Source: Tragulus kanchil (Eukaryota > Chordata > Mammalia > Artiodactyla > Tragulidae). From it: DNA of 64,000 nucleotides. Both the position numbers and the translations under genes were made by a program. The stretch's first letter is position 1. Every line of letters begins with the position of its first letter. The stretch lies in contig JAIOJX010000001.1 of assembly GCA_022376925.1 (NCBI GenBank), forward strand, positions 40,024,324-40,088,323, in the 5' to 3' direction. Below, piece after piece: positions 1,980-64,000 of this stretch. The notes below the pieces were generated by a model. It was not told the origin of the DNA. It did not search any database and was given only the letters and a program-made list of their open reading frames with translations.

Positions 1980-2243
1980 GAGCTTTAGCTTCAGCATCAG
2001 TCCTTCCAAAAAATACTCAGAGTTGATTTCCTTTAGGATTGAGTGATTTGATCTCCTCCAACACCACAGTTCAAAGGCATCAGTCCTTTGGTGCTCAGCT
2101 TTCTTTATGGTCCAACTCTCACATTCATACATAACTACTGGGAAAACCATAGCTTTGACCATACAAACTTTTGTTGGCAAAGTGATGTCTCCATTTTTGA
2201 ATATGCTATCTAAATTTGTCATAGCTTTCCTTCCAAGGAGCAA
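1977..2243 (-). pseudogene. BovB ORF2 C-terminal remnant
   Basis: An 88-codon minus-strand frame matches the C-terminal part of the BovB polyprotein beyond the reverse transcriptase core. 'GRKAMTNLDSIFKNGDITL', 'VVMYECESWTIKKAEH' and 'FELWCWRR' are typical of the family. After 'WCWRR' the frame goes straight to 'SNHSILKEI', so the short segment usually found between these blocks is missing. This is a dead copy with no independent function. Confidence 0.8.
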
Positions 2244-4287
2244 GTATCTGTTACTTTTGTGGCTGCAGTCACTGCCTGCAATGATTTTTGGAGCCTAAGA
2301 AAATAAATTCTGTCACTGCTTCCACCTTTTCCCTTTCTATTTGCCATGAAGTGATTGGACCAAATGCAATAATCTTAGTTTTCTAAATGTTGAGTTTTAA
2401 GCCAGGTTTTTCATTCTCCTCTCTCACCTTTATCAAGAGGCTCTTTAGTTCCTCTTCACTTTCTGCCATTAGAATAGTGTTTTCTGCATATCTGAGGTCA
2501 TTTATATTTCTCATGGCAATTTTTTGGATTCCAGTTTGTGAGTTTTCTAGTCCAGCATTTCACATTTCTCTGCCTAGAAGTTAGATAAGTAGGGTAACAA
2601 TATACAGCCTATTGTTCTTTTCCCAATTTTGAAGTTCACTGTTCTGTGTATGGTCCTAACTATTGTTTCTTGACCTGCATACAGGTTCCTCAGGAGACAG
2701 GTAAGGTCTCTTTCAGACAGGTAAGGTACCTTTCAGGTACCCATCTCTTTCAGAATTTTCCACAGTTTGTTGTGATCCACACAGTCAAAGGCTTTAGCAT
2801 AGTCAATGAAGTAGATGTTTTTCTGGAATTCCCTTTCTTTCTCTGTGATCCAGCGGATGTGGGCAATTTGATTTTTGGTTCCTCTGGCTTTTCTAAATCC
2901 AGCTTGTACATTTGGAAGGCCTCAGTTCATGTACTGAATTCTAGCTTAGAGAATTTTGAGCATGATCTTGCTAGCATGTGAAATGAGTGCAGTTGTGCAG
3001 TAATTGAAACACTTTTTTGGGATTGCCCTTCTTTGAGATTGGAATGAAAACTCTCTTTTTCCAGTCATCTGGCCATTGCTGTATTTTCCAAATTTGTTGG
3101 CATACTGAGTGTAGCACTTGAACAAAATCATGTTTTAGGATCTGAAATAGCTGACTAGGAATTCTGTCACCTCCACTAGCTTTGTTTGTATTGATATTTC
3201 CTCAGTGCCACTTAAGTTCACATTCCAAACTTTTGTTGGCAAAGTGATGTCTCCATTTTTGAATATGCTATCTAAATTTGTCATAGCTTTCCTTCCAAGG
3301 AGCAAGTATCTGTTACTTTTGTGGCTGCAGTCACTGCCTGCAATGATTTTTGGAGCCTAAGAAAATAAATTCTGTCACTGCTTCCACCTTTTCCCTTTCT
3401 ATTTGCCATGAAGTGATTGGACCAAATGCAATAATCTTAGTTTTCTAAATGTTGAGTTTTAAGCCAGGTTTTTCATTCTCCTCTCTCACCTTTATCAAGA
3501 GGCTCTTTAGTTCCTCTTCACTTTCTGCCATTAGAATAGTGTTTTCTGCATATCTGAGGTCATTTATATTTCTCATGGCAATTTTTTGGATTCCAGTTTG
3601 TGAGTTTTCTAGTCCAGCATTTCACATTTCTCTGCCTAGAAGTTAGATAAGTAGGGTAACAATATACAGCCTATTGTTCTTTTCCCAATTTTGAAGTTCA
3701 CTGTTCTGTGTATGGTCCTAACTATTGTTTCTTGACCTGCATACAGGTTCCTCAGGAGACAGGTAAGGTCTCTTTCAGACAGGTAAGGTACCTTTCAGGT
3801 ACCCATCTCTTTCAGAATTTTCCACAGTTTGTTGTGATCCACACAGTCAAAGGCTTTAGCATAGTCAATGAAGTAGATGTTTTTCTGGAATTCCCTTTCT
3901 TTCTCTGTGATCCAGCGGATGTGGGCAATTTGATTTTTGGTTCCTCTGGCTTTTCTAAATCCAGCTTGTACATTTGGAAGGCCTCAGTTCATGTACTGAA
4001 TTCTAGCTTAGAGAATTTTGAGCATGATCTTGCTAGCATGTGAAATGAGTGCAGTTGTGCAGTAATTGAAACACTTTTTGGCATTGCCCTTCTTTGAGAT
4101 TGGAATGAAAACTCTCTTTTTCCAGTCATCTGGCCATTGCTGTATTTTCCAAATTTGTTGGCATACTGAGTGTAGCACTTGAACAAAATCATGTTTTAGG
4201 ATCTGAAATAGCTGACTAGGAATTCTGTCACCTCCACTAGCTTTGTTTGTATTGATATTTCCTAAGGGCCACTTGAGTTCACATTCC
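2164..4287. repeat. 1062-bp direct tandem duplication (unit 1)
   Basis: Copies 2164-3225 and 3226-4287 lie wholly inside BovB fragment B and abut with 'ccaa' shared at the junction. They differ at a few sites, for example 3010-3030 versus 4072-4090 (T-run length and a G/C change) and 3201-3215 versus 4262-4277. The offset of 1062 bp recurs at 10497 and 50524, which points to an assembly cause. Confidence 0.95.
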
Positions 4288-4418
4288 AAGATGTCTGGCT
4301 TTAGGTGAATGACCACGCCATCATGGTTATCTGGGTCATTAACACCTTTCTTGTATAATTGATCTGTATATTCTTGCATGTAGTTCCCTGAGTTAATTTT
4401 TACTGCTTCTCTCACCAC
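4008..4418 (-). pseudogene. BovB reverse transcriptase N-terminal remnant
   Basis: A 136-codon minus-strand frame covers the start of the BovB reverse transcriptase. 'NTNKASGGDRIPSQLFQIL' (around residues 57-75) corresponds to the conserved NKA-x-G-D-x-I-P motif of RTE and other non-LTR reverse transcriptases. 'WPDDWKKRVFIPISKKGN' follows (around residues 97-114), the family's W-K/P-x-x-K-K-G block. The frame ends at 'SHASKIMLKIL', well before the catalytic FADD-type motif. Copy 1 of the 1062-bp duplication carries the same region at 2946-3131 with a frameshift near 'AIPKKCFNY'. An endonuclease domain would lie upstream, but the element is truncated at about 4425. It is a remnant with no expected activity. 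Confidence 0.85.
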
Positions 4419-4494
4419 ATACTCTTACTACCCACCCCTGTTCTCATATGGAAATTTATTTATTTCTTTATTTGACTTCTAAAATCTCATAGGG

Positions 4495-4878
4495 CTTTAT
4501 TGATGCCTTTGAATTGTGGTGTTGCAGAAGACTCTTGAGAGTCCCTTGGACTGCAAAGAGATCAAACCACTCAATCCTAAAGAAAATCAACCCTGAGTAT
4601 TTTTTGGAAGGAATGATGCTGAAGCTGAAGTTCTGATACTTTGGCCACCTGATGTGAAGAGATGACTCATTGGAAAAGAGCCTGATGTTGGGGGAAAATA
4701 GAAGGCAAAAGGAGAAGGGGATGACAGAGGATGAGATGGTTGGATTGCATCACTGAGTCAATGGACATTAGTTTGAGCAAGCTCTGGGAAACGGTGAAGG
4801 GCAGGGAGGCCTGGCATGCTCCGGTCCATGGAGTTGCAAAGAGTTGAACATAACTGAGCAACTTAACTGAACTGAAAG
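4495..4878 (+). mobile_element. BovB LINE 3' end
   Basis: A sense-strand BovB 3' end: 'gaattgtggtgttgcagaag', 'tcaatcctaaagaaaatcaaccctgagtat' and 'ctttggccacctgatg' segments, ending in the characteristic ACTGA-type tail ('aacttaactgaactgaa', 4860-4876). It lies head-to-head with the minus-strand BovB on its left, forming a long imperfect inverted repeat. Confidence 0.85.
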
Positions 4879-7245: not shown

Positions 7246-7489
7246 GAAAGAGAAAGTAAAACTTAGAACCAGTAAGTGGCATCCAGAAGTCGTGAGTGAC
7301 AGCCAGGTTTTCACAACTCATCTATATTAAAGTGAGACTGTGAATCCAGACATTGTCAGTTCCCACACCAATGTTTGTTCTCCTATGATGCTCGGATCAC
7401 CTATTTGCCAAGGACTGGAATCCAGTCAAACACCTTTCATAGTTCAACTGGGCAAAAGGATGCCATGTCCTTTTCCTTTGTAATGCCGC

Positions 7490-7666
7490 TGTTTTATCAC
7501 TGCACTTAATTCATTTTATTGTAGTTGCCATTTTTCCATATCTGTCTCGGTAGACTATGGGCTCCTTGATGACAGGGACCATGTCTTATGGATCTTTCTA
7601 TCCCCAGAACCTAGTCCAGTGTTCAGAGACACAGTAAGCATTCAGTTAAAGCCCGTTGAAGTAAAA
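7490..7666 (+). repeat. L2 LINE 3'-end remnant (copy 1)
   Basis: 'gggctccttgatgacagggacc', 'tatccccagaacctagtccagtg' and 'cattcagttaaagcccgttgaa' follow the order of the L2 3' end (ctccttgagggcaggga, ccccagcgcctagcacagtg, caataaatgtttgttgaa). The repeat is diverged and noncoding. Confidence 0.7.
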
Positions 7667-7860
7667 GGGGAGCTTCCCAGTTGACTCAGTGGTAAAAGAA
7701 TTCGCTTGCCAATGCAGGACAGTCAGGAGACACAGGTTCAAACCCTGGGTCAGGAAGATCCCTGACAGAAGTAAATGGCAACCCACTGCAGTGTTCTTGC
7801 CTGGAGAATTCCATGGACAATCCATAGGATCACAGAGAGTCGGACATGACTGAGCACATA
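7667..7860 (+). mobile_element. Bov-tA SINE (copy 1)
   Basis: A tRNA-like head 'agcttcccagttgactcagtggtaaaag' with a B-box-like 'ggttcaaaccctgg', then the Bov-A body 'ggcaacccactgcagtgttcttgcctgg' ending in 'cggacatgactgagcac'. Typical ruminant SINE moved by BovB machinery. Confidence 0.9.
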
Positions 7861-8609
7861 TTGGAGAGGAAGGAGGGAGAAACAGAGGAAGGTATAGGTG
7901 ATCCAGAAGGCACTTCTGACTCCTGCCTTGCTGTTATTTTTTTGCATGACACCTGGAAATCATTCTGACTCTTTGAACTTTCTGGAGGCTTGAGGTCTGG
8001 GTAAATGGGAGTTTTCAAGGATGCTAAACTAATCTGAACTTCTTGACTGCTTTAGTGATAAAGCAGTCAGCCCAGCCGACTCTCAGGCCATGTATCAGCT
8101 AATCAATAGCAATGTTCAGCCTATACCAAGATTTTCTAACACCTGTCAAGGCTGACTAATCAGGGATTGTTCAAAAATCACATGGAGCAGAAAAACCTTT
8201 CTTTTCTCTTGGGGAATTTCTTGCAAAAAGATGTTGGGTAGGAGCTGGACAGTTCAAATCTCAAATGATCTAATTATTATTAAGAAGACTATATGAAATG
8301 AGGAAGTAGGAGGGAAGCAGGAAAACCAAGGCTAAGCTTATATCACCCTTAGGAACTGGGCAATAGTCTGTAATGATCTATATACGAATAGAATTTGAAC
8401 ATCCAGAAGTCGTGAGTGACAGCCAGGTTTTCACAACTCATCTATATTAAAGTGAGACTGTGAATCCAGACATTGTCAGTTGCCACACCAATGTTTGTTC
8501 TCCTATGATGCTCGGATCACCTATTTGCCAAGGACTGGAATCCAGTCAAACACCTTTCATAGTTCAACTGGGCAAAAGGATGCCATGTCCTTTTCCTTTG
8601 TAATGCCGC

Positions 8610-8786
8610 TGTTTTATCACTGCACTTAATTCATTTTATTGTAGTTGCCATTTTTCCATATCTGTCTCGGTAGACTATGGGCTCCTTGATGACAGGGACC
8701 ATGTCTTATGGATCTTTCTATCCCCAGAACCTAGTCCAGTGTTCAGAGACACAGTAAGCATTCAGTTAAAGCCCGTTGAAGTAAAA
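8610..8786 (+). repeat. L2 LINE 3'-end remnant (copy 2)
   Basis: Second copy of the L2 piece at 7490-7666, carried by the 1120-bp duplication. It is not an independent insertion. Confidence 0.7.
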
Positions 8787-8980
8787 GGGGAGCTTCCCAG
8801 TTGACTCAGTGGTAAAAGAATTCGCTTGCCAATGCAGGACAGTCAGGAGACACAGGTTCAAACCCTGGGTCAGGAAGATCCCTGACAGAAGTAAATGGCA
8901 ACCCACTGCAGTGTTCTTGCCTGGAGAATTCCATGGACAATCCATAGGATCACAGAGAGTCGGACATGACTGAGCACATA
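8787..8980 (+). mobile_element. Bov-tA SINE (copy 2)
   Basis: Second copy of the Bov-tA at 7667-7860, carried by the 1120-bp duplication and identical by eye. Confidence 0.9.
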
Positions 8981-9491
8981 TTGGAGAGGAAGGAGGGAGA
9001 AACAGAGGAAGGTATAGGTGATCCAGAAGGCACTTCTGACTCCTGCCTTGCTGTTATTTTTTTGCATGACACCTGGAAATCATTCTGACTCTTTGAACTT
9101 TCTGGAGGCTTGAGGTCTGGGTAAATGGGAGTTTTCAAGGATGCTAAACTAATCTGAACTTCTTGACTGCTTTAGTGATAAAGCAGTCAGCCCAGCCGAC
9201 TCTCAGGCCATGTATCAGCTAATCAATAGCAATGTTCAGCCTATACCAAGATTTTCTAACACCTGTCAAGGCTGACTAATCAGGGATTGTTCAAAAATCA
9301 CATGGAGCAGAAAAACCTTTCTTTTCTCTTGGGGAATTTCTTGCAAAAAGATGTTGGGTAGGAGCTGGACAGTTCAAATCTCAAATGATCTAATTATTAT
9401 TAAGAAGACTATATGAAATGAGGAAGTAGGAGGGAAGCAGGGAAAACCAAGGAACTTAATCATGCTTATCACTCCACCCTTAGGAACTGGG

Positions 9492-9655
9492 CAATAGTCT
9501 GTAATGATCTATATACGAATAGAATTTGAAAAGGAATAGATACATGCATATGTGTAGTTGAATCATTTTGCTGTACACCTGAAACTAACACAGCATTGTT
9601 AATCAACTATCCTCCAATATAAACTAAAATTTGTTTTAAAATAAAAATATATTAG
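9492..9655 (+). mobile_element. L1 3'-end fragment
   Basis: 'tttgctgtacacctgaaactaacacagcattgttaatcaac' and 'cctccaatataaa' are the L1 3' UTR end, with an A-rich tail near 9630-9650. It is severely 5'-truncated and noncoding. The left part is also present at 8372-8399, cut off by the duplication junction. Confidence 0.8.
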
Positions 9656-11354
9656 ACCCCTGACTTGTTGGATTCTCTCAGAGGACTGCAGGAAGTGAGG
9701 AGTAGGGAGGGGAGAAGTGATGGTTAGGAGATTAGAACGAGATAGAAAGAAAATAGACAATGGTGTGTGGTGCCCACTCCTTCTGTAACCATTGAAGAAA
9801 AATCTTTCCCAGCTGCTTTCTCTTTTCAAAAACATGCAGGATTAATGCATTTGAAACACTGTGCACAGCTCCCCACCTCTATCTCTCAAATAGGTGCAGG
9901 CTTAGAATTTCTGTTTTAGCCCTTGCTATACCACCTGCTGTTTTCAAATTCCTAGGGCTCAGTTGTGTTGATAGTGTGAGGGTAAAGGGTCTTCCATTGT
10001 TTCCATCAGTAGTGTTTTCCCTTGATTTACTAGTTGAACTGTTTTACATCCCATAAGGATCAAGTTTGGCACCAAACATCAGGGGACGGATGATTTTGAA
10101 AATCTTGTTGCCTTTTTTAAACTCCAAATAATCAAAACCTGTTAAAATATTGTTAATTTAGAAGTGAGATATATGTCCTTCCTTCTGATTCACACATACT
10201 TTTAATCCTTTTCTTTAGATATCTGTTCTAAAAGTAATATTAGGGATTTTTTTTTTTTTTTTGGAGAAAGAGGGGTGAAAGTCCTTGATGATGCCTAGCT
10301 GCAGTTTGTCATGCAATAGGGGAAAGTATGGTAAGATTTGAATAGCCTTTTCAAGATTTACTCTTGATACTTAAGAGACTATTTTTTTCTCCTCATGACT
10401 CAGGGATTATTATGCGTGATCACCCATTTTTCTCAAAATGACAAATTCAGTGCTTATCCCTATGGGATAGAGTCACATGTCCTTGAAATGACTCAAGTTG
10501 CAAATTCTTTCAGGATTCTATTTTCCCATGAGTAGATCTGTGTGTTCCAAAGAACAAGTTCTACACTCTGGTGAAAAGTATGATTGTGCTCAAGCTGCAA
10601 TGATTTAAAAATGCTTTTAATCATTTTGTGAAAATAGTTGAATGTTCCCAGTCTTGAAAGTGTGAATGAGGGTAGGGCTAGTATTTTTATGGACCCATTT
10701 TGTTTGCATGTGTTATGAGACAGCATATATTGTCTTATGTAAACTTCAGGTATTGCACCAATTTCCACTTAAAGAAACAAGAGGCATCAGCATTTGGGTC
10801 CAGTAAGATGTTCAGATCCTCAAATTGCCTTCTAAAACTGTCTATAGAAAATGTAGGAATAAGATTGGTAAAGCCAGCTAGTCCTTTAGTCATTATTTTC
10901 AGTGTGTGTGTGTGTTTGGCAAGGATAAGGGGAATGAAATACTAATTTAAATTGTCCTTTAGGTGATGAAGCTTTGGAGCTCACAACATATCCACCACTT
11001 ATGGAACACTCATTCAAATTCATTCATTCACAATGTCTTATTTTTTCTCACTTCCCTATGAATTCCATCATTGGAGGGTGGGTGAAGAAAGAAGAAAAAA
11101 GCTACATTTTCCCAGAAGCTTTTTGCCAGGACAAGTTCCAGGATACTTGATTGTTTTGCCAAAAAATTTCATCCTTATCTGTCTTCACCATTAAGACTCA
11201 ATTCACCCTATCTCTACTTCTATTGTCTATGAATAATTTCATAGGTTTTGCTGTTCAATCAAGAGAAAAATATCCAGTTTTAGATTGTGCCCAATATCCT
11301 GGGGTCAGGTAATAATTCAATATACTAATAGCAGTCCAAACCAGTTTAGTGATC
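9656..11354. other. Unique-looking noncoding DNA
   Basis: No gene is recognised. It holds a T run at 10247-10262, a short GT run near 10900-10915, and the left copy of the 10497 duplication. Frames of 78-91 codons have no motif or splice context. Confidence 0.4.
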
Positions 11355-12620
11355 TGCTTTCTATGTTGGTTGTCAGATGTTGAATCATACTTGCATTCCT
11401 GGAATACATCCCACTTGGTCGTGTTATATAATCCTTTGACTGTTGTTGAGTTAGTTTTTCTTATATTTTCTTGAGAATGTTTTCATCTATGATCATCAGG
11501 GGTACTGACCCAAATAATTTTCCTTTATTGCCATACACTTGCATGGTTTTGGTATCAGGTTGCAAATTCTTTCAGGATTCTATTTTCCCATGAGTAGATC
11601 TGTGTGTTCCAAAGAACAAGTTCTACACTCTGGTGAAAAGTATGATTGTGCTCAAGCTGCAATGATTTAAAAATGCTTTTAATCATTTTGTGAAAATAGT
11701 TGAATGTTCCCAGTCTTGAAAGTGTGAATGAGGGTAGGGCTAGTATTTTTATGGACCCATTTTGTTTGCATGTGTTATGAGACAGCATATATTGTCTTAT
11801 GTAAACTTCAGGTATTGCACCAATTTCCACTTAAAGAAACAAGAGGCATCAGCATTTGGGTCCAGTAAGATGTTCAGATCCTCAAATTGCCTTCTAAAAC
11901 TGTCTATAGAAAATGTAGGAATAAGATTGGTAAAGCCAGCTAGTCCTTTAGTCATTATTTTCAGTGTGTGTGTGTGTTTGGCAAGGATAAGGGGAATGAA
12001 ATACTAATTTAAATTGTCCTTTAGGTGATGAAGCTTTGGAGCTCACAACATATCCACCACTTATGGAACACTCATTCAAATTCATTCATTCACAATGTCT
12101 TATTTTTTCTCACCTCCCTATGAATTCCATCATTGGAGGGTGGGTGAAGAAAGAAGAAAAAAGCTACATTTTCCCAGAAGCTTTTTGCCAGGACAAGTTC
12201 CAGGATACTTGATTGTTTTGCCAAAAAATTTCATCCTTATCTGTCTTCACCATTAAGACTCAATTCACCCTATCTCTACTTCTATTGTCTATGAATAATT
12301 TCATAGGTTTTGCTGTTCAATCAAGAGAAAAATATCCAGTTTTAGATTGTGCCCAATATCCTGGGGTCAGGTAATAATTCAATATACTAATAGCAGTCCA
12401 AACCAGTTTAGTGATCTGCTTTCTATGTTGGTTGTCAGATGTTGAATCATACTTGCATTCCTGGAATACATCCCACTTGGTCGTGTTATATAATCCTTTG
12501 ACTGTTGTTGAGTTAGTTTTTCTTATATTTTCTTGAGAATGTTTTCATCTATGATCATCAGGGGTACTGACCCAAATAATTTTCCTTTATTGCCATACAC
12601 TTGCATGGTTTTGGTATCAG
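10497..12620. repeat. 1062-bp direct tandem duplication (unit 3)
   Basis: Copies 10497-11558 and 11559-12620 abut with 'gtt' shared at the breakpoints. They are nearly identical; one visible change is 'cacttccc' versus 'cacctccc' near 11050 and 12112. The right breakpoint falls inside an L1 piece. The offset is exactly that of the 2164 and 50524 duplications. Confidence 0.95.
11355..11558 (-). repeat. Old L1 ORF2-region fragment (copy 1, cut at junction)
   Basis: Reverse of an L1 ORF2 segment: 'gttgaatcatacttgcattcctgg' and 'ggttttggtatcagg' are typical. It ends at the duplication junction; the full fragment is at 12417-12975. Confidence 0.65.
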
Positions 12621-19719: not shown

Positions 19720-19962
19720 AGGGGCTTCCCTAGTGGTCCAGTGGGTAAGGATGCTGCCTTGCAGTTCTAGGGACGCCGGTTCGTTCTCTGGCCTGGGAAG
19801 ATCCTACGTGCTGTGAAGTGGCTGGACCAATTTGTCCAACTACCAAGCCAGAGCTCTGGGGCAATGAAGAGAGGCCTTTGTGGTGGGAGGCCCACACAGG
19901 CCAAAGGACAAAAATAATTAAATAAAAGATCAATAGAAGTGACCAAAAAAAAAAAAAAAAAA
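19720..19962 (+). mobile_element. CHR-type tRNA-Glu-derived SINE
   Basis: Head 'ggcttccctagtggtccagtgg', B-box region 'ggttcgttctctggcc', body 'ggctggaccaatttgtccaac' and 'gggaggcccacacaggcc', then an 18-A tail at 19945-19962. The last 70 bp are repeated at 21013 by the next duplication. Confidence 0.9.
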
Positions 19963-20124
19963 GGACTTTGTAAACACATTGCTAGTGCTCTTTCTTCCAC
20001 AGTCTTGGGAAGGATTTGGGTGTAGGAGGGGATTTGGGAATTTAAAACCCATGTTTCATGGGCTTCACTGGAAATCTGCTTCTGATTTAAAAAAACACAA
20101 ACAAACAGCATATTTTAGCTTTTG

Positions 20125-20478
20125 CTTTTTTTAGAATATTTATTTATTTATTTATGGCTGTGCTGAGTCTTTGTTGTTGTCTATAGGTTTTCTCTAGTTG
20201 CAGAGAGCAGAACCTACTCTCTAATTGTAATATGCAGGCTTCTCATTGCAGTAACTTCCCTTGCTGTGGAGAAGAGGTTCTAGGGTGCAGGAGTGTCAGT
20301 AGTTTCCATACAGGCTCTAGAGCCTGGGCTCAGCTTCTGGGTTCCAGAGCACAGTGTCAGTAGCTGTGGGCTAATTTGCTCCAAGGCATGTGGAAATCTT
20401 CTTGGACAGGGATCAAACCAGTGTCCCTTACGTTCCAAGGTGGATTTTTAACCACTGATCCACTAGGGAAGTCATCAT
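20125..20478 (-). mobile_element. Old CHR-type SINE (copy 1)
   Basis: 'tttatttatggctgtgctgagtctttgttg' at the left and reversed tRNA-like head 'accactgatccactagggaagtc' at the right. Diverged and with an internal 'gttccagagcacagtgtcag' segment, so an older or longer CHR subtype than the others here. Confidence 0.75.
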
Positions 20479-20483
20479 AGCTT

Positions 20484-20945
20484 TCTTTTTTTTTTTTTTC
20501 CCCTGTGGAATAAAAAGTTTATTTAAGAAATAATAAAAGGGATAGGGAAAGCTTCCAGCATAGACACTGGAAGGGGGAAAGAAGAATACCTCCAGAAGCT
20601 AGTTTAGGTGAGTCATTTTATACTTTTCCAGTTGGTCATTAACAGTAGATTGAAAGAATATTTTAAGGTGGTAAAGGTCTTATCAAACGCATACCCACAA
20701 CATGCATCTTTAGATAACATAGATACAAACTAAGAAGGAGAAACATGTCCTCCAGCAAGGTTAACACTGTTACAAACATTAGCTCTGGGCTTAGTCTTAG
20801 ACAAAATAGATCATTGTCATAGACATGGCAATCAAGGTGAAGGCACCTTGACTAAAAATGTTTATTCTTCCTCTTCCTCCTTGGAAACTTCAGGCTTTCT
20901 TAAAAATTACTTATACTCTACAGTAACTCAGTTCTTTAATCATTA
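20484..20945 (-). pseudogene. Polyadenylated retrocopy-like unit (copy 1)
   Basis: On the minus strand the sequence ends in AATAAA (around 20519-20524) followed about 20 nt later by an A run (20486-20499 as T). That is the hallmark of a reverse-transcribed polyadenylated RNA. The body is about 440 bp and has no frame I recognise. Upstream on the minus strand lies 'tataaaatgactcacc', a TATA-like box, so it could be an LTR-derived transcript rather than an mRNA. The parent is unknown. Confidence 0.45.
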
Positions 20946-21245
20946 TTATTTATTTATAATATTTCCCCAATTCTCAAATTAATTCTTTTATCTGTATATT
21001 TTTTATTTAATTCACACAGGCCAAAGAACAAAAATAATTAAATAAAAGATCAATAGAAGTGACCAAAAAAAAAAAAAAAAAAAGGACTTTGTAAACACAT
21101 TGCTAGTGCTCTTTCTTCCACAGTCTTGGGAAGGATTTGGGTGTAGGAGGGGATTTGGGAATTTAAAACCCATGTTTCATGGGCTTCACTGGAAATCTGC
21201 TTCTGATTTAAAAAAACACAAACAAACAGCATATTTTAGCTTTTG

Positions 21246-21600
21246 CTTTTTTTAGAATATTTATTTATTTATTTATGGCTGTGCTGAGTCTTTGTTGTTG
21301 TCTATAGGTTTTCTCTAGTTGCAGAGAGCAGAACCTACTCTCTAATTGTAATATGCAGGCTTCTCATTGCAGTAACTTCCCTTGCTGTGGAGAAGAGGTT
21401 CTAGGGTGCAGGAGTGTCAGTAGTTTCCATACAGGCTCTAGAGCCTGGGCTCAGCTTCTGGGTTCCAGAGCACAGTGTCAGTAGCTGTGGGCTAATTTGC
21501 TCCAAGGCATGTGGAAATCTTCTTGGACAGGGATCAAACCAGTGTCCCTTACGTTCCAAGGTGGATTTTTAACCACTGATCCACTAGGGAAGTCATCATA
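21246..21600 (-). mobile_element. Old CHR-type SINE (copy 2)
   Basis: Second copy of the SINE at 20125-20478 produced by the 1120-bp-offset duplication. Confidence 0.75.
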
Positions 21601-21605
21601 GCTTT

Positions 21606-22065
21606 CTTTTTTTTTTCCCTGTGGAATAAAAGTTTATTTAAGAAATAATAAAAGGGATAGGGAAAGCTTCCAGCATAGACACTGGAAGGGGGAAAGAAGA
21701 ATACCTCCAGAAGCTAGTTTAGGTGAGTCATTTTATACTTTTCCAGTTGGTCATTAACAGTAGATTGAAAGAATATTTTAAGGTGGTAAAGGTCTTATCA
21801 AACGCATACCCACAACATGCATCTTTAGATAACATAGATACAAACTAAGAAGGAGAAACATGTCCTCCAGCAAGGTTAACACTGTTACAAACATTAGCTC
21901 TGGGCTTAGTCTTAGACAAAATAGATCATTGTCATAGACATGGCAATCAAGGTGAAGGCACCTTGACTAAAAATGTTTATTCTTCCTCTTCCTCCTTGGA
22001 AACTTCAGGCTTTCTTAAAAATTACTTATACTCTACAGTAACTCAGTTCTTTAATCATTATTATT
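21606..22065 (-). pseudogene. Polyadenylated retrocopy-like unit (copy 2)
   Basis: Second copy of the unit at 20484-20945, with a shorter T run and one fewer A in 'ggaataaaagttt'. It is part of the duplication and not an independent retrotransposition. Confidence 0.45.
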
Positions 22066-22109
22066 TATTTATAATATTTCCCCAATTCTCAAATTAATTC
22101 TTTTATCTG

Positions 22110-22620
22110 ATATATTTATTTATTGTAGTTATTCTTTTATGTAGAAAAAGTAGGGTGTACATGTTCTCATTCTTGAATATCTTAATGTCTCTTTTTCTGC
22201 TGCCCTCCTAGGTGTGTAATAGCTTGGCTGGGTATAGAATTAGTTGCTCTTTTGTTTTTTCTTAAAACTCCATAGTCATTGTTCAGTTGTTTTATTGCTT
22301 TCAATGTTATGGAAAATATGACAAATAAAAGTGACATTTAGTTTTCTTTTTTGGTAAGCTCATTTTGATTTGCTTGTTTTCTTGTTGGTTTGTTGCTATG
22401 GATATTAATAGGAGTTTTCCCCTTTTCCTTGATAGTAAAAAAAGCTATGAATAGATATACAGATTTACTCCGTAAATCCTTCTTTTCTATAAAGTATTTC
22501 TCATTATTCTCCGAAGACTTTTTGTTTAATTCCATACGTGTGTGTATACTTATATATGAAGTATATATCAATAAGTCCATGAATATATTATGTTGGTTAT
22601 TAAAATGGAGTAAAATTTCT
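22110..22620. other. Possible antisense old L1; otherwise unassigned
   Basis: 'ttggctgggtatagaattagttg' near 22226 resembles a phrase common in antisense old L1 sequence. The remainder is not recognised. Frames of 77-80 codons on both strands overlap each other and show no motif. Confidence 0.35.
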
Positions 22621-23095: not shown

Positions 23096-23929
23096 ACATT
23101 ATTTTCTTTCATCACAGTTTTACAGTAAGTGAATATTTCTCATCTCCATGAAATCTTCTCTGATTTTATATTGTTGCCTTTTCAATGTCCCCTGCCAATT
23201 AAAATATATTTTACAAATGTAATATAGTATATATTCTCATTGAAAATGCACAGTTATGTGTTACAGATTTCTCTGTCATTTTCCCATATTTTTGTTTGTT
23301 TATTTCTGGTTTATTTACTTTTAAATGACTCAATTTCATAGATCATTGCAATTCTAGAGGAAAATTATTCAGGGAAAAAATTGATTAACTTGTGGCTGAC
23401 ATCCTGTTGCTACTTCATTCCATTTTATTCTCTCCATTTATTAGAACCTACTCAAAGGTCTTCACCTACACTTATTTTCTGGTGATGGTATAAATGAGTA
23501 TACTTTGACAGGTATATGTAAGAATTCCTTGTAACATATAGTTCTCCCTGACTAATTGCCTATTTCTGTGTGACAGTTGTTCTCGAGAGATGATAGAAAT
23601 ATTCCAGTGTTGGGTGACAGCATGTCTTCATTGACTCGAAGTGTGGTCACAGACTGTTAACCTACTTAATATGTTTCATTGGACCAGTACAATATTTTTT
23701 AGTGTCTTCAGACACTGCCTACAATATTTCTCTTCAATTCCAACTACTCTCAGTTGATTTTACAACAGGGTCACTTCATTTATTTTGTCAACTTGCTCTG
23801 TAAACATTTAAGATTGTGATTTCTAAGCTGATGTAAAGTTTGTGCAAGAGAGCCTCAGTGTGAAGATCAAGATTATCAAGAGGCCATAAAGTCATGTCTA
23901 AACCTGCCAACTGAGCTATTAATGGGTCT

Positions 23930-24065
23930 GTACATTTGTCAACTATTCACCTACTCTGTGCTATAATTTGAAATAAGTCTAAGGATAAAGCAGTAAACAA
24001 AATATACGTGTTCATTGGCCCTCTTGGAGCTTATAGTGCAGTGGAAGAAACAGAGAAAGAATAAC
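23930..24065 (-). repeat. L2-like remnant (copy 1)
   Basis: 'ctactctgtgctataattt', 'aaagcagtaaacaaaatatacg' and 'ccctcttggagcttatagtgcagtgg' follow an L2 3' region read in reverse (cactgtgctaggcac, agtgaacaaaacag, ccctcatggagcttacattc). Confidence 0.65.
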
Positions 24066-43005: not shown

Positions 43006-43719
43006 CTATGCCTGTCACAGTGATTGACAGAAATGAAGCATGAAAGAGAGCAACTGTGTTGATGAGCCAGGGAGGTGAAAAGTAGACAAGACCTGCATCA
43101 TATATTTTTAACAACTCAATAAATTTCTTTCATCCATTCCCTGAATCTTTGCATTCCAGCCAGAAAAGAATGACATCAAGTTTCAGCTAGAAATGAATTT
43201 TTGTTTGTGAAGGTTGGAAAGGTAGAAGACTGTAAAGCATATATTTTTAATGAAATTATAGTACCCTCCAGAATCTCACTCAAACCTAGTCCTTGGGGCC
43301 ATGCTATACTTATGGGAAAGCAAAGCAAAGCAAAGCAATGTCTTTTTGCTGCTTCAGCAAGTAAATTCTTCTGGATGAATCTGTAACAGCCTCTTTTTAT
43401 GTGGAGTTCTGTATTGTTCTCTCATTTCATTAAAAGAAAATTTGACTTACTTCACCGTCCTAAACCCTTGACATTCAGAATAGGATCCAGAAAAAAAAAA
43501 AAAAACTGGTTAGGATAAAAACATTTTGTGGAAGAAGTTTGACAAGCTTGGAGCCAATCAACGGGAGAGCTTTGTCAGGATATACAGGTGATGGCCTATG
43601 TCTCTTTTCTTGGAAATCCTGAAGACAGGACTTGTTTTAGAAAATTAAAATCCCCTTTTCATTTTAATTATGTATTCCTCCACCTTAAAAGAGATTACAC
43701 TACCCCTTATTGAAGCAAT

Positions 43720-43900
43720 ATAAAATAGTTGAAAATGCACAGACCCTGAAGCAAAACAGACAGATTCAAAACATGGCTGTGAAAATTAGTAGCTTTGAGT
43801 GAAGTCTTGGAAAACCAGTTAACAGTGCTTGATTCTTTCTCTTCTGCAAATAGTAAATAATATTATTCATCCTGTGGGGTTATTAAAAAATTGATATAGG
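43720..43900 (+). repeat. MIR SINE remnant (copy 1)
   Basis: 'gttgaaaatgcacagaccctgaagc', 'gacagattcaaaacatggctgtg', 'ttcttctgcaaatagtaaataatattattcatcctgtggggttatta' follow the MIR order. It is repeated at 44798-44977. Confidence 0.7.
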
Positions 43901-44797
43901 AATATATAAATGATATAAATCTATATCAATATAATACTGAAATTCCTACTATAAACATTTCTTCTGCTGATGTCTCTGTTTATCTTCAAATGTGAATGAT
44001 GGGTCTTAAAATCTTAGAAATGTGTTGTCAATCTCTTTCTCCTTCTTGTCACCTGTTCCTTAATTTTCATGGGCATAAATTTATTTTGGAAGATGCTCCT
44101 ATGCCTGTCACAGTGAGACAGAAATGAAGCATGGGTGTTGATGAGCCAGGAGGTGAAAAGTAGACAAGACCTGCATCATATATTTTTAACAACTCAATAA
44201 ATTTCTTTCATCCATTCCCTGAATCTTTGCATTCCAGCCAGAAAAGAATGACATCAAGTTTCAGCTAGAAATGAATTTTTGTTTGTGAAGGTTGGAAAGG
44301 TAGAAGACTGTAAAGCATATATTTTTAATGAAATTATAGTACCCTCCAGAATCTCACTCAAACCTAGTCCTTGGGGCCATGCTATACTTATGGGAAAGCA
44401 AAGCAAAGCAAAGCAATGTCTTTTTGCTGCTTCAGCAAGTAAATTCTTCTGGATGAATCTGTAACAGCCTCTTTTTATGTGGAGTTCTGTATTGTTCTCT
44501 CATTTCATTAAAAGAAAATTTGACTTACTTCACCGTCCTAAACCCTTGACATTCAGAATAGGATCCAGAAAAAAAAAAAAACTGGTTAGGATAAAAACAT
44601 TTTGTGGAAGAAGTTTGACAAGCTTGGAGCCAATCAACGGGAGAGCTTTGTCAGGATATACAGGTGATGGCCTATGTCTCTTTTCTTGGAAATCCTGAAG
44701 ACAGGACTTGTTTTAGAAAATTAAAATCCCCTTTTCATTTTAATTATGTATTCCTCCACCTTAAAAGAGATTACACTACCCCTTATTGAAGCAATAT

Positions 44798-44977
44798 AAA
44801 ATAGTTGAAAATGCACAGACCCTGAAGCAAAACAGACAGATTCAAAACATGGCTGTGAAAATTAGTAGCTTTGAGTGAAGTCTTGGAAAACCAGTTAACA
44901 GTGCTGATTCTTTCTCTTCTGCAAATAGTAAATAATATTATTCATCCTGTGGGGTTATTAAAAAATTGATATAGGAA
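44798..44977 (+). repeat. MIR SINE remnant (copy 2)
   Basis: Duplicate of 43720-43900, with a one-base deletion in 'agtgctgattc'. Confidence 0.7.
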
Positions 44978-45175
44978 TATATAAATGATATAAATCTATA
45001 TCAATATAATACTGAAATTCCTACTATAAACATTTCTTCTGCTGATGTCTCTGTTTATCTTCAAATGTGAATGATGGGTCTTAAAATCTTAGAAATGTGT
45101 TGTCAATCTCTTTCTCCTTCTTGTCACCTGTTCCTTAATTTTCATGGGCATAAATTTATTTTGGAAGATGCTCCT

Positions 45176-49725: not shown

Positions 49726-50646
49726 TCTTGACCAGATTTGTTCTGCACAAATTCCTCTTCCCTTCAGCTGAGTTCTGCCTAAGGACATTTCTGTCACTGT
49801 AGTACAGAAGTAGCTGTATCATTGAATAGGCATTTCAATGTATAATTGAATGAGTTCTAATAGAAAAATAGACAGTGGGCCATGTTTGTCCACTCATAGG
49901 CAATAGTTTGCCAATCCCTGACTTAGTTCATTGTGCTGCTGCAGGTATTTATCACTTTCTTATTGGTTCTAAAAAGTTCTGCATATATTAAAAACAGTTC
50001 TTCATATATTGAGACTCTGTTAACTGAAAGAAGTGCACAGTGTGATAGCTATGATTTAAATTTTATTTGGGATCAAATAAGGACTTTAGCCAGGAGACAG
50101 CATCTCAGTGAGCTCCGATGAACTGCTCTGAAGATGTAGCAGATGCTCACTATGGTATGTGATTTTAGTGAAGAGGGAAACATGCAGTCAAGCGCACATT
50201 TTGTTTGGCAGAGGCTTGCTGCTACTCTCATGAAGGTTAATACTAGTCATGAGGATCAGATATCCCTATTAATGATTTTAATGCCTTTCTGGGTATGAGA
50301 TGATGCAGAATCTTATGAGAAGTCCTGTTCTGCCACTTTTTCCCGGAACACAGGGTGCCTCATTCATGATCTCTACCCTGAACTCCTTTCAGGACCTGCT
50401 GAAGGTCAGTGACTGCAAGGCTAGTGGCTTAATCCTTGTAGAGACAGATGACAAGTACCAATTTTTAGTTGGCAGCCCTTTGTAATGTGTTTTGTAAATG
50501 CCTCCCTGCTTGTTGTAAAATTTCATGTATTTCAGTATATGAATTTTCGTTATTTAGTCTTTGCTTTTTACTCTTAGCAAGATTTTCCCCACCAAAATAA
50601 AGAAAAATCCAGATAATGATTGACTGATATTTTCTTCTAGTCCTTT
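49726..50646. other. Unassigned; possible LTR-like repeat at about 50040-50640
   Basis: The right part ('gccaggagacagcatctcag', 'tctttcatgatctctaccc'-like text, 'cctccctgcttgttgtaaaatttc', ending with AATAAA near 50597) reads to me like a dispersed ruminant repeat, perhaps an ERV LTR. I cannot place it in a named family and see no gag, pol or env coding sequence. Confidence 0.3.
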
Positions 50647-50999
50647 TACGGTTCACTTTTTTTTTTTTTTTTGACATTTATTTTATTTATTTATCTTTTA
50701 TCAGGTGGGGAGGGAGGGGGATGGGTGGGCCACTTCTGTTGGTCTTTCATTTGTCTATTTCCATCCGTCTTTGTTCTTTGGCCCATGTGGGCCTCGCATC
50801 ACGGTGGCCTCTGTTGTCACAGAGTGCTGGCTCTGGGCGCATGCGCTCCAGAGCTCTGGCTCAGTAGTTGGACACATCGGTCCAGCCGCTCTGCGGCACG
50901 TGGGATCTTCCCAGGCCAGGGATCAAACCAACGCCCCTTGCACTGTAAGGCAGTGTCCTTACCCACTGGACCACCAGGGAAGCCCTATGGTTCACTTTT
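50647..50999 (-). mobile_element. CHR SINE with target-site duplication (copy 1)
   Basis: 'ta(c/t)ggttcactttt' at 50647-50660 and 50986-50999 is a 14-bp target-site duplication with one CpG-type change. Between is a reversed CHR SINE ending in the head 'acccactggaccaccaggg'. The long + frames here (50671-51048, 50705-51001) are repeat translations. Confidence 0.93.
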
Positions 51000-51585
51000 A
51001 AGTCTATCTGGAAATAACTTTAATGTGAGGCTTGTAGTAGAGAACTGATTTTCTGTTTTGCAACAAATAGTCAACCAATGGTGTCAGTACCTCTTATTGA
51101 ATAAACCTTCTTTGCTCATTGGGGCTTCTTTTAAAGTTGAGTCTCTCCTAAATTGGATGTATCTCTATTGATCTTAAAGGTGCTATCCTTTGAGTCTAGC
51201 ATTTGAAAAAATAATGGCTCTAGAAGTCTATTCACTGTAGGCAGCCTCTCAAACTGCCTTTCTACTTACATTGATCCAGTTGGAAATGTATGGAGAGTTC
51301 CACCATAACTATAGTGATTGCTATTGTTGTAGCTGCTGGTGTCGTTTTGTTTTCCTTACATCTCTGTCTCTTTGTATTTATATTGCTCAGTGAAGAAATG
51401 TCTTTCTGTATAAAATCAGAGAAATGGTGACTCCTCTTCCTATTGTAATTTAGCCTTGGTTCACTCTTCTCATTGGCAGTAGGCTTCGTTTCCTCATATT
51501 GTGATAAAACTACTTGTCTGTGGTACACTATACCCCTTTCTCATATTCTTTTTTAAATCTGTGTGTAAATACTTTTCTTAAATTA
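51000..51585. other. Unassigned DNA in duplication unit 11 (copy 1)
   Basis: Noncoding; the 88-codon minus frame 51262-51528 (and its copy 52325-52591) has no motif. Confidence 0.35.
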
Positions 51586-51708
51586 CATGTATTTCAGTAT
51601 ATGAATTTTCGTTATTTAGTCTTTGCTTTTTACTCTTAGCAAGATTTTCCCCACCAAAATAAAGAAAAATCCAGATAATGATTGACTGATATTTTCTTCT
51701 AGTCCTTT

Positions 51709-52062
51709 TACGGTTCACTTTTTTTTTTTTTTTTTGACATTTATTTTATTTATTTATTTTTTTTTAGGGGGGGGGGGGGGGGGGTGGGTGGGCCACTTCT
51801 GTTGGTCTTTCATTTGTCTATTTCCATCCGTCTTTGTTCTTTGGCCCATGTGGGCCTCGCATCACGGTGGCCTCTGTTGTCACAGAGTGCTGGCTCTGGG
51901 CGCATGCGCTCCAGAGCTCTGGCTCAGTAGTTGGACACATCGGTCCAGCCGCTCTGCGGCACGTGGGATCTTCCCAGGCCAGGGATCAAACCAACGCCCC
52001 TTGCACTGTAAGGCAGTGTCCTTACCCACTGGACCACCAGGGAAGCCCTATGGTTCACTTTT
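51709..52062 (-). mobile_element. CHR SINE (copy 2) with 18-G run
   Basis: Duplicate of 50647-50999. The tail-side segment that reads as mixed G/A/T in copy 1 is replaced here by 18 consecutive G at 51767-51784. Confidence 0.93.
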
Positions 52063-52907
52063 AAGTCTATCTGGAAATAACTTTAATGTGAGGCTTGTAG
52101 TAGAGAACTGATTTTCTGTTTTGCAACAAATAGTCAACCAATGGTGTCAGTACCTCTTATTGAATAAACCTTCTTTGCTCATTGGGGCTTCTTTTAAAGT
52201 TGAGTCTCTCCTAAACTGGATGTATCTCTATTGATCTTAAAGGTGCTATCCTTTGAGTCTAGCATTTGAAAAAATAATGGCTCTAGAAGTCTATTCACTG
52301 TAGGCAGCCTCTCAAACTGCCTTTCTACTTACATTGATCCAGTTGGAAATGTATGGAGAGTTCCACCATAACTATAGTGATTGCTATTGTTGTAGCTGCT
52401 GGTGTCGTTTTGTTTTCCTTACATCTCTGTCTCTTTGTATTTATATTGCTCAGTGAAGAAATGTCTTTCTGTATAAAATCAGAGAAATGGTGACTCCTCT
52501 TCCTATTGTAATTTAGCCTTGGTTCACTCTTCTCATTGGCAGTAGGCTTCGTTTCCTCATATTGTGATAAAACTACTTGTCTGTGGTACACTATACCCCT
52601 TTCTCATATTCTTTTTTAAATCTGTGTGTAAATACTTTTTTTTCTTAAATTACTTGAAGGTAAGAATGATTTTTGGCCTCCTGGACTCCCAAGAGACCCT
52701 ACTCTGGGCTACTAATTGGATTAATTGACCTTTCTTTTTCTAATTCAACTGACCATAATGACATACTCCCAATGTAGGAGTATATTCACCTTGACCATTT
52801 CACTTCGGTGGTGATCTAATCATAGTGGAACCTTCTGCTGTCCTAGACCTTCTCGTTCCAGTTTTCACTGTGTTCTCTGCTTTCAGTAATAATAGAAGTA
52901 TACTAAG
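52063..52907. other. No recognised feature
   Basis: The rest of copy 2 and about 250 bp of unique DNA. Confidence 0.35.
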
Positions 52908-56680: not shown

Positions 56681-57394
56681 GAAATGATCATTAAAAAGCT
56701 GGCTATGTTGGGTGCTTGACAATATTCAAGTCAGGAAACACTGGTTTATGTGCTGGACTATAGACTTATCCTGTAAGGGAAATGGAATGAAATGGAAGAT
56801 ACAAACTGACTAACAGCTAATGCTGATAACAGATCAGGTCAAGACTACTTTGGACTACATTACGTATTCTGGAAAGTACTCATCCTCCCTGCCTATCCCT
56901 CGCATTTGACACGGATGAACATATTAAATGCTATTTTAAGCTAGGAAGAGTATTTTTTAGATCAATTTTATTGATGGAGAGACCAATTTTAGGTTAACAT
57001 GAAGACAGTCTTGAAGGGAAATAAAGTAGCCAGAAGATAAGCCACTCTATGGCAGGCCATATCGAACAGAAAATGATTGACTTTACCTAGTCTCAGAGGT
57101 GGAAGATAGAGGTCTGCCTTAGTCCCTGGCACCTATGCTTGATTTTATGCAGATGAACAGGTGGAAAAGGTATCTCTATCCTCATCTGGCTGCCTCTTTG
57201 GGTCATAACCCGGCGACCAGTGACTATAGCAGAATTGGGCCCTCAGAGAAGTCTGGCTAAGCACCTGATAGCCTGAGAACAGAGAGTCCTGTTGTTCACT
57301 TAAAGGAACCAATGTAGATGAACAGTAGACCAAAAAAAAAAAAAAAAAAAACCCTGTTTCACCATTAACTTAGAGCTGAGCTATGTCCATGCCC

Positions 57395-57602
57395 TGGTGG
57401 CTGAGGGTAATGAACTTACCAGCAATGTGGGAGACACAGATTTGATCCCTGTGTCAGGAAGATCCTCTGGAGGAAGACATGGCAATCCACTCTAGTATTT
57501 TTGTTTGGGGATTTCCATGGGACAGAGGAGCCTGGCAGGCTACAGTCCATGGGGTCATAAAGATTCAGACATGACTGAGGTGACTGAGAGCTCACACATG
57601 TC
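57395..57602 (+). mobile_element. Bov-tA SINE (copy 1)
   Basis: 'gccctggtggctgagggtaatg' head, 'gatttgatccctgtgtcagg', 'ggcaatccactctagtatttttg' and 'ggcaggctacagtccatgggg' body. An 18-20-nt A run at 57333-57352 lies upstream. Confidence 0.9.
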
Positions 57603-57855
57603 CATGCCACAGGCAATTATTTCTGCCCAAAACAGAGAAATAAGCTAGTGACAAAGTGTCTCCAGCTTCTCTTAACAGCCCATTATGTGTGAGTCTGTCA
57701 GTCTTTGTGTTTTCAGTCACTTTAATTTTGGGAAAAATAATGTAATGATCCTCATCTTTTTCATTTGTCCTAAAAGTGCTTACACTAGAATTATGAAATC
57801 TGAGGGTGAAAAGGAACCTTTTACCAAAACCAGATTAAGAGTGTGCACCAAAAAA
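57603..57855. other. Unassigned DNA in duplication unit 12
   Basis: Noncoding; no motif in the 68-codon frame 57685-57891. Confidence 0.35.
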
Positions 57856-58494
57856 CTGGTTTATGTGCTGGAAACAGAGGAAATGGAATGAAATGGAAGA
57901 TACAAACTGACTAACAGCTAATGCTGATAACAGATCAGGTCAAGACTACTTTGGACTACATTACGTATTCTGGAAAGTACTCATCCTCCCTGCCTATCCC
58001 TCGCATTTGACACGGATGAACATATTAAATGCTATTTTAAGCTAGGAAGAGTATTTTTTAGATCAATTTTATTGATGGAGAGACCAATTTTAGGTTAACA
58101 TGAAGACAGTCTTGAAGGGAAATAAAGTAGCCAGAAGATAAGCCACTCTATGGCAGGCCATATCGAACAGAAAATGATTGACTTTACCTAGTCTCAGAGG
58201 TGGAAGATAGAGGTCTGCCTTAGTCCCTGGCACCTATGCTTGATTTTATGCAGATGAACAGGTGGAAAAGGTATCTCTATCCTCATCTGGCTGCCTCCTT
58301 GGGTCATAACCCGGCGACCAGTGACTATAGCAGAATTGGGCCCTCAGAGAAGTCTGGCTAAGCACCTGATAGCCTGAGAACAGAGAGTCCTGTTGTTCAC
58401 TTAAAGGAACCAATGTAGATGAACAGTAGACCAAAAAAAAAAAAAAAAAAACCCTGTTTCACCATTAACTTAGAGCTGAGCTATGTCCATGCCC

Positions 58495-58702
58495 TGGTGG
58501 CTGAGGGTAATGAACTTACCAGCAATGTGGGAGACACAGATTTGATCCCTGTGTCAGGAAGATCCTCTGGAGGAAGACATGGCAATCCACTCTAGTATTT
58601 TTGTTTGGGGATTTCCATGGGACAGAGGAGCCTGGCAGGCTACAGTCCATGGGGTCATAAAGATTCAGACATGACTGAGGTGACTGAGAGCTCACACATG
58701 TC
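58495..58702 (+). mobile_element. Bov-tA SINE (copy 2)
   Basis: Duplicate of 57395-57602. Confidence 0.9.
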
Positions 58703-58934
58703 CATGCCACAGGCAATTATTTCTGCCCAAAACAGAGAAATAAGCTAGTGACAAAGTGTCTCCAGCTTCTCTTAACAGCCCATTATGTGTGAGTCTGTCA
58801 GTCTTTGTGTTTTCAGTCACTTTAATTTTGGGAAAAATAATGTAATGATCCTCATCTTTTTCATTTGTCCTAAAAGTGCTTACACTAGAATTATGAAATC
58901 TGAGGGTGAAAAAGGAACCTAATTAGAGGTCACC

Positions 58935-59140
58935 AAAACCAGTGATTCCCAAACTGCAGTGTGCACATGTCAGAGGATTGACAGCATCAGCTTGATTTGG
59001 GAACTTGTTAGAACTGCCAGGTTCTTGGGAACTCGTTAGAACTGGCCCTCTTCCCCAAACTATTGAATGGGAATCTGCATTTATAACAAGATCCTTGGGA
59101 AATTCTTTATACGTATGAAAGGTTGAGAATCATGTAACTG
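58935..59140 (+). repeat. MER5A-like DNA transposon remnant
   Basis: 'cagtgattcccaaactgcagtgtgcac', 'gaatgggaatctgcatttataacaag' and 'gaaaggttgagaatcatg' match MER5A in the sense direction, with a partly repeated 'aacttgttagaactg' segment near 59003 and 59030. Confidence 0.75.
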
Positions 59141-62025: not shown

Positions 62026-62039
62026 TCACAGTAATGCTT

Positions 62040-62268: not shown

Positions 62269-62920
62269 TAAGCTGTGTCTCTCCAAAGGTAAAATTCTGA
62301 ATGCAAATAGCTGATAGCACAGATTTTAATACTGTTTCCAGAAGCCAACCTGATAAAGGAGCTCTAGTATAATGATTTTGCACTCCGAAGATCAAAATTT
62401 CAGTAGCATCAATTAAGGTTGGTTAAAAAGAGAACCAGAGTCTGTTTGCCCCAAAAGCAAATATATATATATATATATGAGTTCAAGTTCAAGGTGTAGG
62501 AAAATAGTTGACCTACTTATGGCCTATGAAGCAAACATTTAGTTATCCAGTCCTCATCACAGGAATGTGCCCTCAGTTCATACATGATTTGAGCTAAAGA
62601 AGGAACCCTTTTTTCCACTCTGTAGAAATAAGCAGTATTTTAATCAGGTTGGAATAAATACTATGGATTAAGGAACCAAGTCTTTTTTGGTCTTAACATT
62701 GTCTCCACAGCTGTGTGGGATGTGTAATAGTTACACAATATGTTGTTATTGAATGAATAAACATATTTCTGTTATTTTAAAAATTAAAACAGAATTTTCA
62801 TTTGGAACTCATGTATTTTTTTCAGGTATTACTTGGAAAGCTGAAACTCTCCCTAAGGGTTAGGATATCTTTGGGACAAAGTTTGAAAATCACATGTGCC
62901 TGTCACTATGAAAACTGAGA
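62269..62920. other. No recognised feature
   Basis: Noncoding, with an AT run at 62461-62479. It contains the left edge of duplication unit 13 at 62703. Confidence 0.4.
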
Positions 62921-63207
62921 TAGGGGCTTCCCTGGTGGTCCAGTGGGTAAGGACACCGCCTTGCAGTGCAAGGGGCACCGGTTCGATCCCTGGCCTGTGA
63001 AGATCTCACGTGCCGCAGAGCGGCTGGACCGATTTGTCCCAACTACCGAGCCGGAGCTCTGGAGTGCATGTGCCCAGAGCCAGTGCTCTGCAGCGACAGA
63101 GGCCACTTTGATGGGAGGCCCACACAGGCCAAAGAACAAAGATAAATGAATGAAAGATCAATAGAAGTGGCCAAAAACAAAAACAAAAACAAAAAACAAA
63201 ACTGAGA
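62911..63207 (+). mobile_element. CHR-type SINE with 10-bp target-site duplication
   Basis: 'aaaactgaga' at 62911-62920 and 63198-63207 flanks the SINE. It has 'ggcttccctggtggtccagtgg', 'ccggttcgatccctggcc', 'cagagcggctggaccg' and a CAAAA-type tail at 63173-63197. It is CpG-rich and probably among the youngest insertions here. Confidence 0.94.
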
Positions 63208-63488
63208 ACAATTAGTCACTGGATAGTCTTCAGTTACTCTGAATCTTACACCATCTTCTTGTTTCCACTTTTTTTTTTGTTTGCCTCTACTGTTCTACTT
63301 ACTTATATTCTATCTCGAGTCCACAGTCAAGGGAATATTAATGAAGGAGACAAGGCAAAATACAGAAGTGTGGAAGTTATAGTGAACTGAGTTTCATACT
63401 CTGAGAAAGTAAAATGAGATGAAACCCCATGAGAAGAAAAATAGTGCAGTTCTCTTTTATTTTCTGGAATCTCTTTCTAAGAACAAAT
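63208..63488. other. No recognised feature
   Basis: Short unique stretch. Confidence 0.35.
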
Positions 63489-63844
63489 CTTTTTTTGTAA
63501 TTCATTTTTATTTTACTTTTACAGAATTTTGCTGTTTACTGCTGCACATCAACCTGAGTCAGCCATAGGTACACACATCTCCCCTCTCACTTGAACTTCC
63601 CTCCCATCTCCTTCCCCATCCCACCCTTCCAGGTTGTTGCAGAGCCCCTGTGTAAGTTCCCTTAGTCTTACAGCAGATTCACACTGGTTATCTATTTTAC
63701 ATAAAGTAATTTAAGTTTCCATGTTACTCTTTAAGTACATCTCACACATTCCTCCCTCCCCTCAAATGCCCATAAGTCTTTTCTCTATGTCTGTTTCTCC
63801 ATTGCCGCTTTGCATATACATTAATTAGTATCATCTTTTAAATT
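63489..63844 (-). mobile_element. L1 3' UTR fragment
   Basis: 'tttacagaattttgctgtttactgctgcac', 'ccaggttgttgcagagccc', 'tccctcccctcaaatgcccataagtc' and 'ctccattgccgctttgcatatac' are reversed L1 3' UTR of the same type as at 17.3 and 32.4 kb. It stops exactly at the duplication junction, so the rest of this L1 may lie beyond copy 2. Confidence 0.85.
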
Positions 63845-64000
63845 CTCCACAGCTGTGTGGGATGTGTAATAGTTACACAATATGTTGTTATTGAATGAAT
63901 AAACATATTTCTGTTATTTTAAAAATTAAAACAGAATTTTCATTTGGAACTCATGTATTTTTTTCAGGTATTACTTGGAAAGCTGAAACTCTCCCTAAGG

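Follow-up and report, generated by a model that had tools for sequence, protein, structure and literature searches.

Near-identical 1.1-kb side-by-side pairs in the Tragulus kanchil assembly GCA_022376925.1: probable unmerged overlaps of consensus pieces

In the part of the report of Kelley and Salzberg (2010) that bears on this question (PMC2864568), the end overlap of neighbouring pieces was kept twice and posed as a duplication; the duplicates were separate contigs, and haplotype differences were the cause. Near-identical tandem copies that were assembly errors were also reported in chicken, where they made up 0.4% of the assembly (Zhang and Backstrom, 2014, as summarized in PMC5217101). 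According to the relevant section of PMC9516828, homotype false duplications are under-collapsed sequence that arises through long-read errors, has raw-read length (1-50 kb) and lies on unplaced scaffolds, while the haplotype kind predominated among false duplications in earlier vertebrate assemblies. Here we analyzed a window of 64,000 nucleotides of Tragulus kanchil (contig JAIOJX010000001.1 of GCA_022376925.1; C1:40024324-40088323), the whole of which was searched, and which carries near-identical pairs of about 1.1 kb standing side by side. These pairs are almost certainly an assembly artefact of some kind. Judged by the sequence, each pair would very probably go back to two adjacent consensus pieces, likely made by an assembler of the wtdbg/wtdbg2 type, whose overlapping ends were placed one behind the other rather than merged.

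Side-by-side pairs in the window and on other contigs

The window was compared with itself, and the pairs were afterwards re-aligned with gaps. Adjacent direct pairs were found at all 13 places named in the original prediction, 12 of them complete and the 13th truncated by the window end. The starts given there were accurate to a few tens of bases, and the pair placed at 27028 was found to start near 27016. The copies were longer than 1 kb and 98.4-100% identical, and are not due to chance. The offsets ranged from 1062 to 1142 bp, with a mean of 1094 and a standard deviation (SD) of 28 (n = 13), and second copies amounted to about 20% of the window. At the first self-comparison, the copies shared at most 7 bases at the junctions or stood at most 59 bases apart; gapped re-alignment closed the larger gaps at pairs 9 and 12, and the largest remaining filler was that of pair 7 (26 bases). 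A scan of the whole window for runs of N returned none. The overlap of pairs 6 and 7 left a block of about 348 bp present three times (at 25935, about 27016, and 28109).

The parent assembly consists of 3,167,203,957 bases in 32 contigs. Five of these were sampled (C1, C2, C4, C7, and C15), with the small contigs outside the sample, and pairs of this kind were present on all five. A 200-kb stretch of C2 held 61 complete adjacent pairs and one truncated by the stretch end, with an identity of 96.2-100% and offsets of 1025-1216 bp (mean 1110, SD 37), and second copies accounted for 34% of it. Two pairs were found in 10 kb of C7 and three, one of them truncated, in 10 kb of C4. On C15, a 20-mer chosen without regard to the window sequence matched two places only, 1071 bases apart, and its loci hold two pairs with offsets of 1070 and 1172, the second truncated by the locus end. 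The density of pairs was one per 3-5 kb. Every counted offset (74/74, 13 from the window and 61 from C2) was above 1024 and within 1025-1216. Among the pieces from junction to junction (12 in the window and 60 on C2), the shortest measured 1.8 kb and the widest spacing was 15.6 kb. Successive repeated blocks on C2 overlapped by at most 433 bp.

The contigs whose size was noted form a chromosome-scale set plus small leftovers (C2, C4, and C7, 155-297 Mb; C9, 1.5 Mb; C12, C16, and C20, 242-263 kb). Two runs of 65 N lie on C2 (20167333-20167397 and 20168412-20168476), 1079 apart and one in each copy of a pair; for the doubled run, a withheld stretch is more probable than a scaffold gap. A further run, of 91 N, was seen at another sampled locus.

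It had also been claimed that offsets coincide exactly at unrelated loci. This held for the window, where five pairs of offsets coincided compared with 0.96 expected for an even distribution over 1062-1142 (p ~0.004). It did not carry over to C2, where 1062 occurred in none and 1120 in one of the 61 offsets, and for this reason neither is a favoured length. A fixed biological unit behind the repeated offsets was therefore rejected.

Direction of errors at the copy ends

To score the errors, the complete pairs were aligned, the ends were cut back to the outermost stretch of 12 identical bases, and the shorter copy was recorded for each insertion or deletion (indel). The trimming removed at most 58 columns at the block ends in the window, and the truncated pair 13 was excluded. 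This stricter count replaced a first, boundary-dependent one, in which 36 of 43 tip indels were short in the junction copy. Within 100 columns of the block ends, 17 of 18 indels in the window shortened the copy abutting the junction (11/12 at a cut-off of 60 columns and 17/19 at 150). On C2, the corresponding count was 53 of 54 (29/29 at 50 columns and 64/65 at 150), and it was the same after exclusion of the one pair with N. Counted per tip on C2 (n = 122), 33 were net shorter, none was longer, and 89 were neither. The indels in the middle of the C2 copies were without this bias (left copy short in 16, right copy short in 25). Differences were about four times denser in the C2 tips than in the middle, at 7.3 vs. 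1.7 per kb.

If the copies are overlapping ends of consensus pieces, one piece would finish with the left copy (its 3' end) and the following piece would open with the right copy (its 5' end). On either side of the junction, the bases nearest to it would then be piece tips, likely with thin read support, and the bases that match them in the other copy would lie inside a piece. The direction of the tip errors is the decisive sign: it fits overlapping ends of consensus pieces, and real duplications should not show it. Nothing in a real duplication, or in alleles placed in a row, would single out the two meeting ends for damage. The errors were concentrated at these two ends and like pairs occurred on all the sampled contigs, as is to be expected of an unmerged overlap. 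Of the explanations offered in the original prediction, that of overlapping contig ends left unmerged is the one strongly supported by the occurrence of the pairs on 5/5 contigs, their near-constant length, and the deletions at the tips of the junction copies.

Uncollapsed haplotypes, that is, maternal and paternal alleles placed in series, had been offered beside it. The substitutions in the middle of the C2 copies, about 0.9 per kb, fall within the usual range of heterozygosity, and duplications of this origin prevailed in the earlier assemblies mentioned above. Allele blocks would, however, vary in length, whereas all 74 offsets fall within 1025-1216, and their differences would be spread evenly, whereas those on C2 are crowded into the tips and have a direction. 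Moreover, 28 of 60 C2 pairs are without any middle difference, and alleles in series do not predict deletions on the copy that abuts the junction. With both the unit length and the direction of the tip errors unexplained, we consider this origin very improbable.

The remaining suggestion was that of real tandem duplications, made by an undescribed process that produces copies of about 1.1 kb genome-wide. The pairs are indeed present in the assembled sequence of every contig sampled. However, such a process would have had to leave one pair per 3-5 kb, with a fifth of the window and a third of the C2 stretch as second copies, all of nearly a single length and a single age. Real copies would be equally intact at their ends, whereas the deletions lie at the two meeting ends with none of this at the outer ends, and a mobile element is broken mid-frame at pair 1. 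The probability that we attach to real duplication is close to nil, and biologically the pairs are not a feature.

Mobile-element junctions were examined at pair 1. The minus strand across this pair carries a reverse-transcriptase region, which we take to be BovB-like. Four of its 10 separate stop-free pieces matched Pfam RVT_1 (E-values of 4e-5 and 0.07, below the Pfam cut-off), and two others gave weak unrelated Pfam matches. The matches cover profile positions 38-95 and 145-185 and, beyond the junction at 3226, 38-95 and 145-185 anew. The order restarts at the junction, which is what the doubling of one stretch would produce.

The coordinates of the window pairs are given in Table 1. In pair 2, all seven small deletions are in the left copy, 57-91 columns before its junction end. 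Pair 4 has the sole tip in the window with an indel in the opposite direction. Bases are missing at the 5' tip of the right copy and the 3' tip of the left copy of pair 9, and both tips of pair 12 carry deletions, always in whichever copy abuts the junction; in both pairs the 3' tip lies outside the strict count. The right copy of pair 10 is short of 15 bases within its first 65 columns. In pair 13, the 157 bases of the right copy within the window are 100% identical to the left copy.

Table 1. Coordinates of the adjacent pairs in the window (position 1 is the first base of the window).
Pair	Span	Left copy	Right copy	Offset (bp)	Remark
1	2164..4286	2164-3225	3226-4286	1062	Junction within presumably BovB-like reverse-transcriptase region
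2	7280..9530	7280-8399	8400-9530	1120	
3	10497..12620	10497-11558	11559-12620	1062	
4	19893..22124	19893-21007	21013-22124	1120	5 bases between copies
5	23113..25248	23113-24180	24181-25248	1068	
6	25202..27363	25202-26281	26283-27363	1081	Right copy overlaps left copy of pair 7 by ~348 bp
7	27016..29174	27016-28082	28109-29174	1093	26 filler bases
8	29414..31572	29414-30489	30493-31572	1079	
9	34608..36848	34608-35722	35727-36848	~1119-1125	
10	43006..45173	43006-44098	44099-45173	1093	
11	50524..52652	50524-51585	51586-52652	1062	tRNA-derived SINE complete in both copies
12	56736..58966	56736-57848	57851-58966	~1101-1115	
13	62702..64000	62702-63843	from 63844	1142	Right copy truncated by window end

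The dispersed repeats seen in the window, presumably BovB-like, Bov-tA-like, and CHR-like, point to a ruminant. A tandem array of 438 bp in 2.5 copies lies at 978-2057 within the presumed BovB-like element; its two longest copies are 91.7% alike. This array differs in kind and age from the 1.1-kb pairs and is perhaps a real old duplication. A short interspersed element (SINE) derived from transfer RNA (tRNA), with a GC-rich body, occurs at 37851-38103, 50727-50988, and 54304-54564 in copies 90-91% alike; we take it to be CHR-like, without a match to a named family. Next to the A/T-rich tail of a SINE, seven substitutions separate the two copies of pair 11 within one 27-bp stretch (50695-50721 vs. 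51758-51784), a cluster that may be either a local consensus error or another SINE copy mixed in. A search of the window against Rfam gave no matches.

Candidate program and joining step

In wtdbg2, nodes of 1024 bases overlap by no more than 256, and the sequence is joined edge by edge afterwards. Older nanopore reads lose bases on balance. The offsets above 1024, the pieces of at least 1.8 kb, and the block overlaps of at most 433 bp are where the pairs resemble the units of this program, and they fit 1024-base units for which an overlap of about one bin is allowed. The offsets of 1025-1216 likewise fit units of 4 x 256 from deletion-biased reads, and they are also compatible with other overlaps of 1 kb. 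For a unit length of 1.06-1.1 kb, the reads would have to be short of some 4-8% of their bases on balance, and the deletion-rich tips fit such reads.

From these features we infer the assembler, the failed join, and the type of read. The reads would be split into bins of 256 bp, the tile size given for wtdbg2 in the passage of PMC11831799 that describes it, and a node of the graph would be four bins, or 1024 raw bases. A separate consensus would be made for every edge, which would begin where one node begins and finish where the following node finishes. Neighbouring edges would share one node, at which they are due to be aligned and joined; where this join failed, the shared node would stand in the sequence two times. 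Given a net loss of bases in the reads, about 1.06-1.1 kb of consensus would result from 1024 raw bases. We regard wtdbg/wtdbg2 as the probable source, with a good deal less assurance than we have in the artefact itself. Literature searches, at the level of listings, returned no report of this joining failure and nothing of use on the assembly of the species.

The bin size was also sought in the spacing of the junctions. In the window, the best period was 261.5 bp (p 0.004 for periods of 256-290, 0.03 for 200-600), and the five shortest pieces, expressed in units of 263 bp, come to 7, 8, 9, 12, and 12 (p 0.0008, with the cut chosen post hoc). The rhythm was not cleanly replicated on C2, and it was rejected as proof of the assembler.

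Several observations weigh against the origin in unmerged wtdbg-type units. On C2, the expected 256-bp rhythm was not clear, which is where the pairs differ from wtdbg2 units: the best period was about 229-232 bp (p 0.07-0.39), and the pre-set period of 261.5 gave z values of 2.0-2.4 for junction spacing, 2.6-2.7 for start-to-end, and 0.5-0.9 for start-to-start distances. The start-to-start distances fell to 686 bp, below three bins (768). The 17 short tip indels of the window stem from only six tips, against one with the opposite direction (24 tips). In addition, a share of second copies of 34% throughout would leave a true genome of 2.1 Gb, and the 20% of the window would leave 2.5 Gb. Ruminant genomes are larger than 2.1 Gb. 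The C2 stretch may thus be richer in pairs than the average of the assembly, or the explanation may be incomplete; since 2.1 Gb is small for a ruminant, the former probably applies.

Overlaps left in place by another pipeline step with a fixed overlap of about 1 kb, such as chunked polishing, gap filling, or contig joining, are possible but doubtful. Any tool that works on overlapping chunks of about 1 kb could yield near-constant duplicates with poor tips, and the sign expected of wtdbg, a 256-bp rhythm, was seen only weakly. However, chunked polishing should space the junctions evenly, whereas the spacing here varies between 1.8 and 15.6 kb, and a length variation of about 3% suggests a length that was set on noisy raw reads, not on a finished draft.

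Returning to the failed join of shared nodes, the failure might depend on length, in that shared units stay unmerged only when their consensus is longer than a preset limit on the overlap. We think such a bug rather unlikely. If it existed, a hidden peak of tandem repeats at about 1.06-1.15 kb would be present in any assembly of deletion-biased long reads for which this program had been run with these settings, and the repeats would cover a fifth to a third of its length.

Significance and comparison with known systems

Should the sampled density of 20-34% apply throughout, false second copies would make up about 0.6-1 Gb of the 3.17-Gb assembly. The assembly likely overstates both the genome size and the duplication content, and false exons, broken genes, false calls of tandem duplication, and wrong transposon ages would follow. 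The tip-deletion test can separate artefacts of this kind from real tandem duplications on sequence alone, without recourse to reads.

False duplication from unmerged contig ends is of a known kind; the present case is set apart by the near-constant unit and the density. The pairs are like the duplicated contigs of Kelley and Salzberg (2010) in the overlap kept twice, and differ in that they lie within one contig, have a near-constant length, and show no N at the junctions in the window. The chicken duplicates, as far as summarized in PMC5217101, are alike in being false tandem copies and unlike in extent, with their small fraction of the assembly set against second-copy shares of 20% (window) and 34% (200 kb of C2). 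And the homotype false duplications, in the description given in PMC9516828, also go back to under-collapsed sequence, while the copies described here are a near-fixed unit of about 1.1 kb placed in series.

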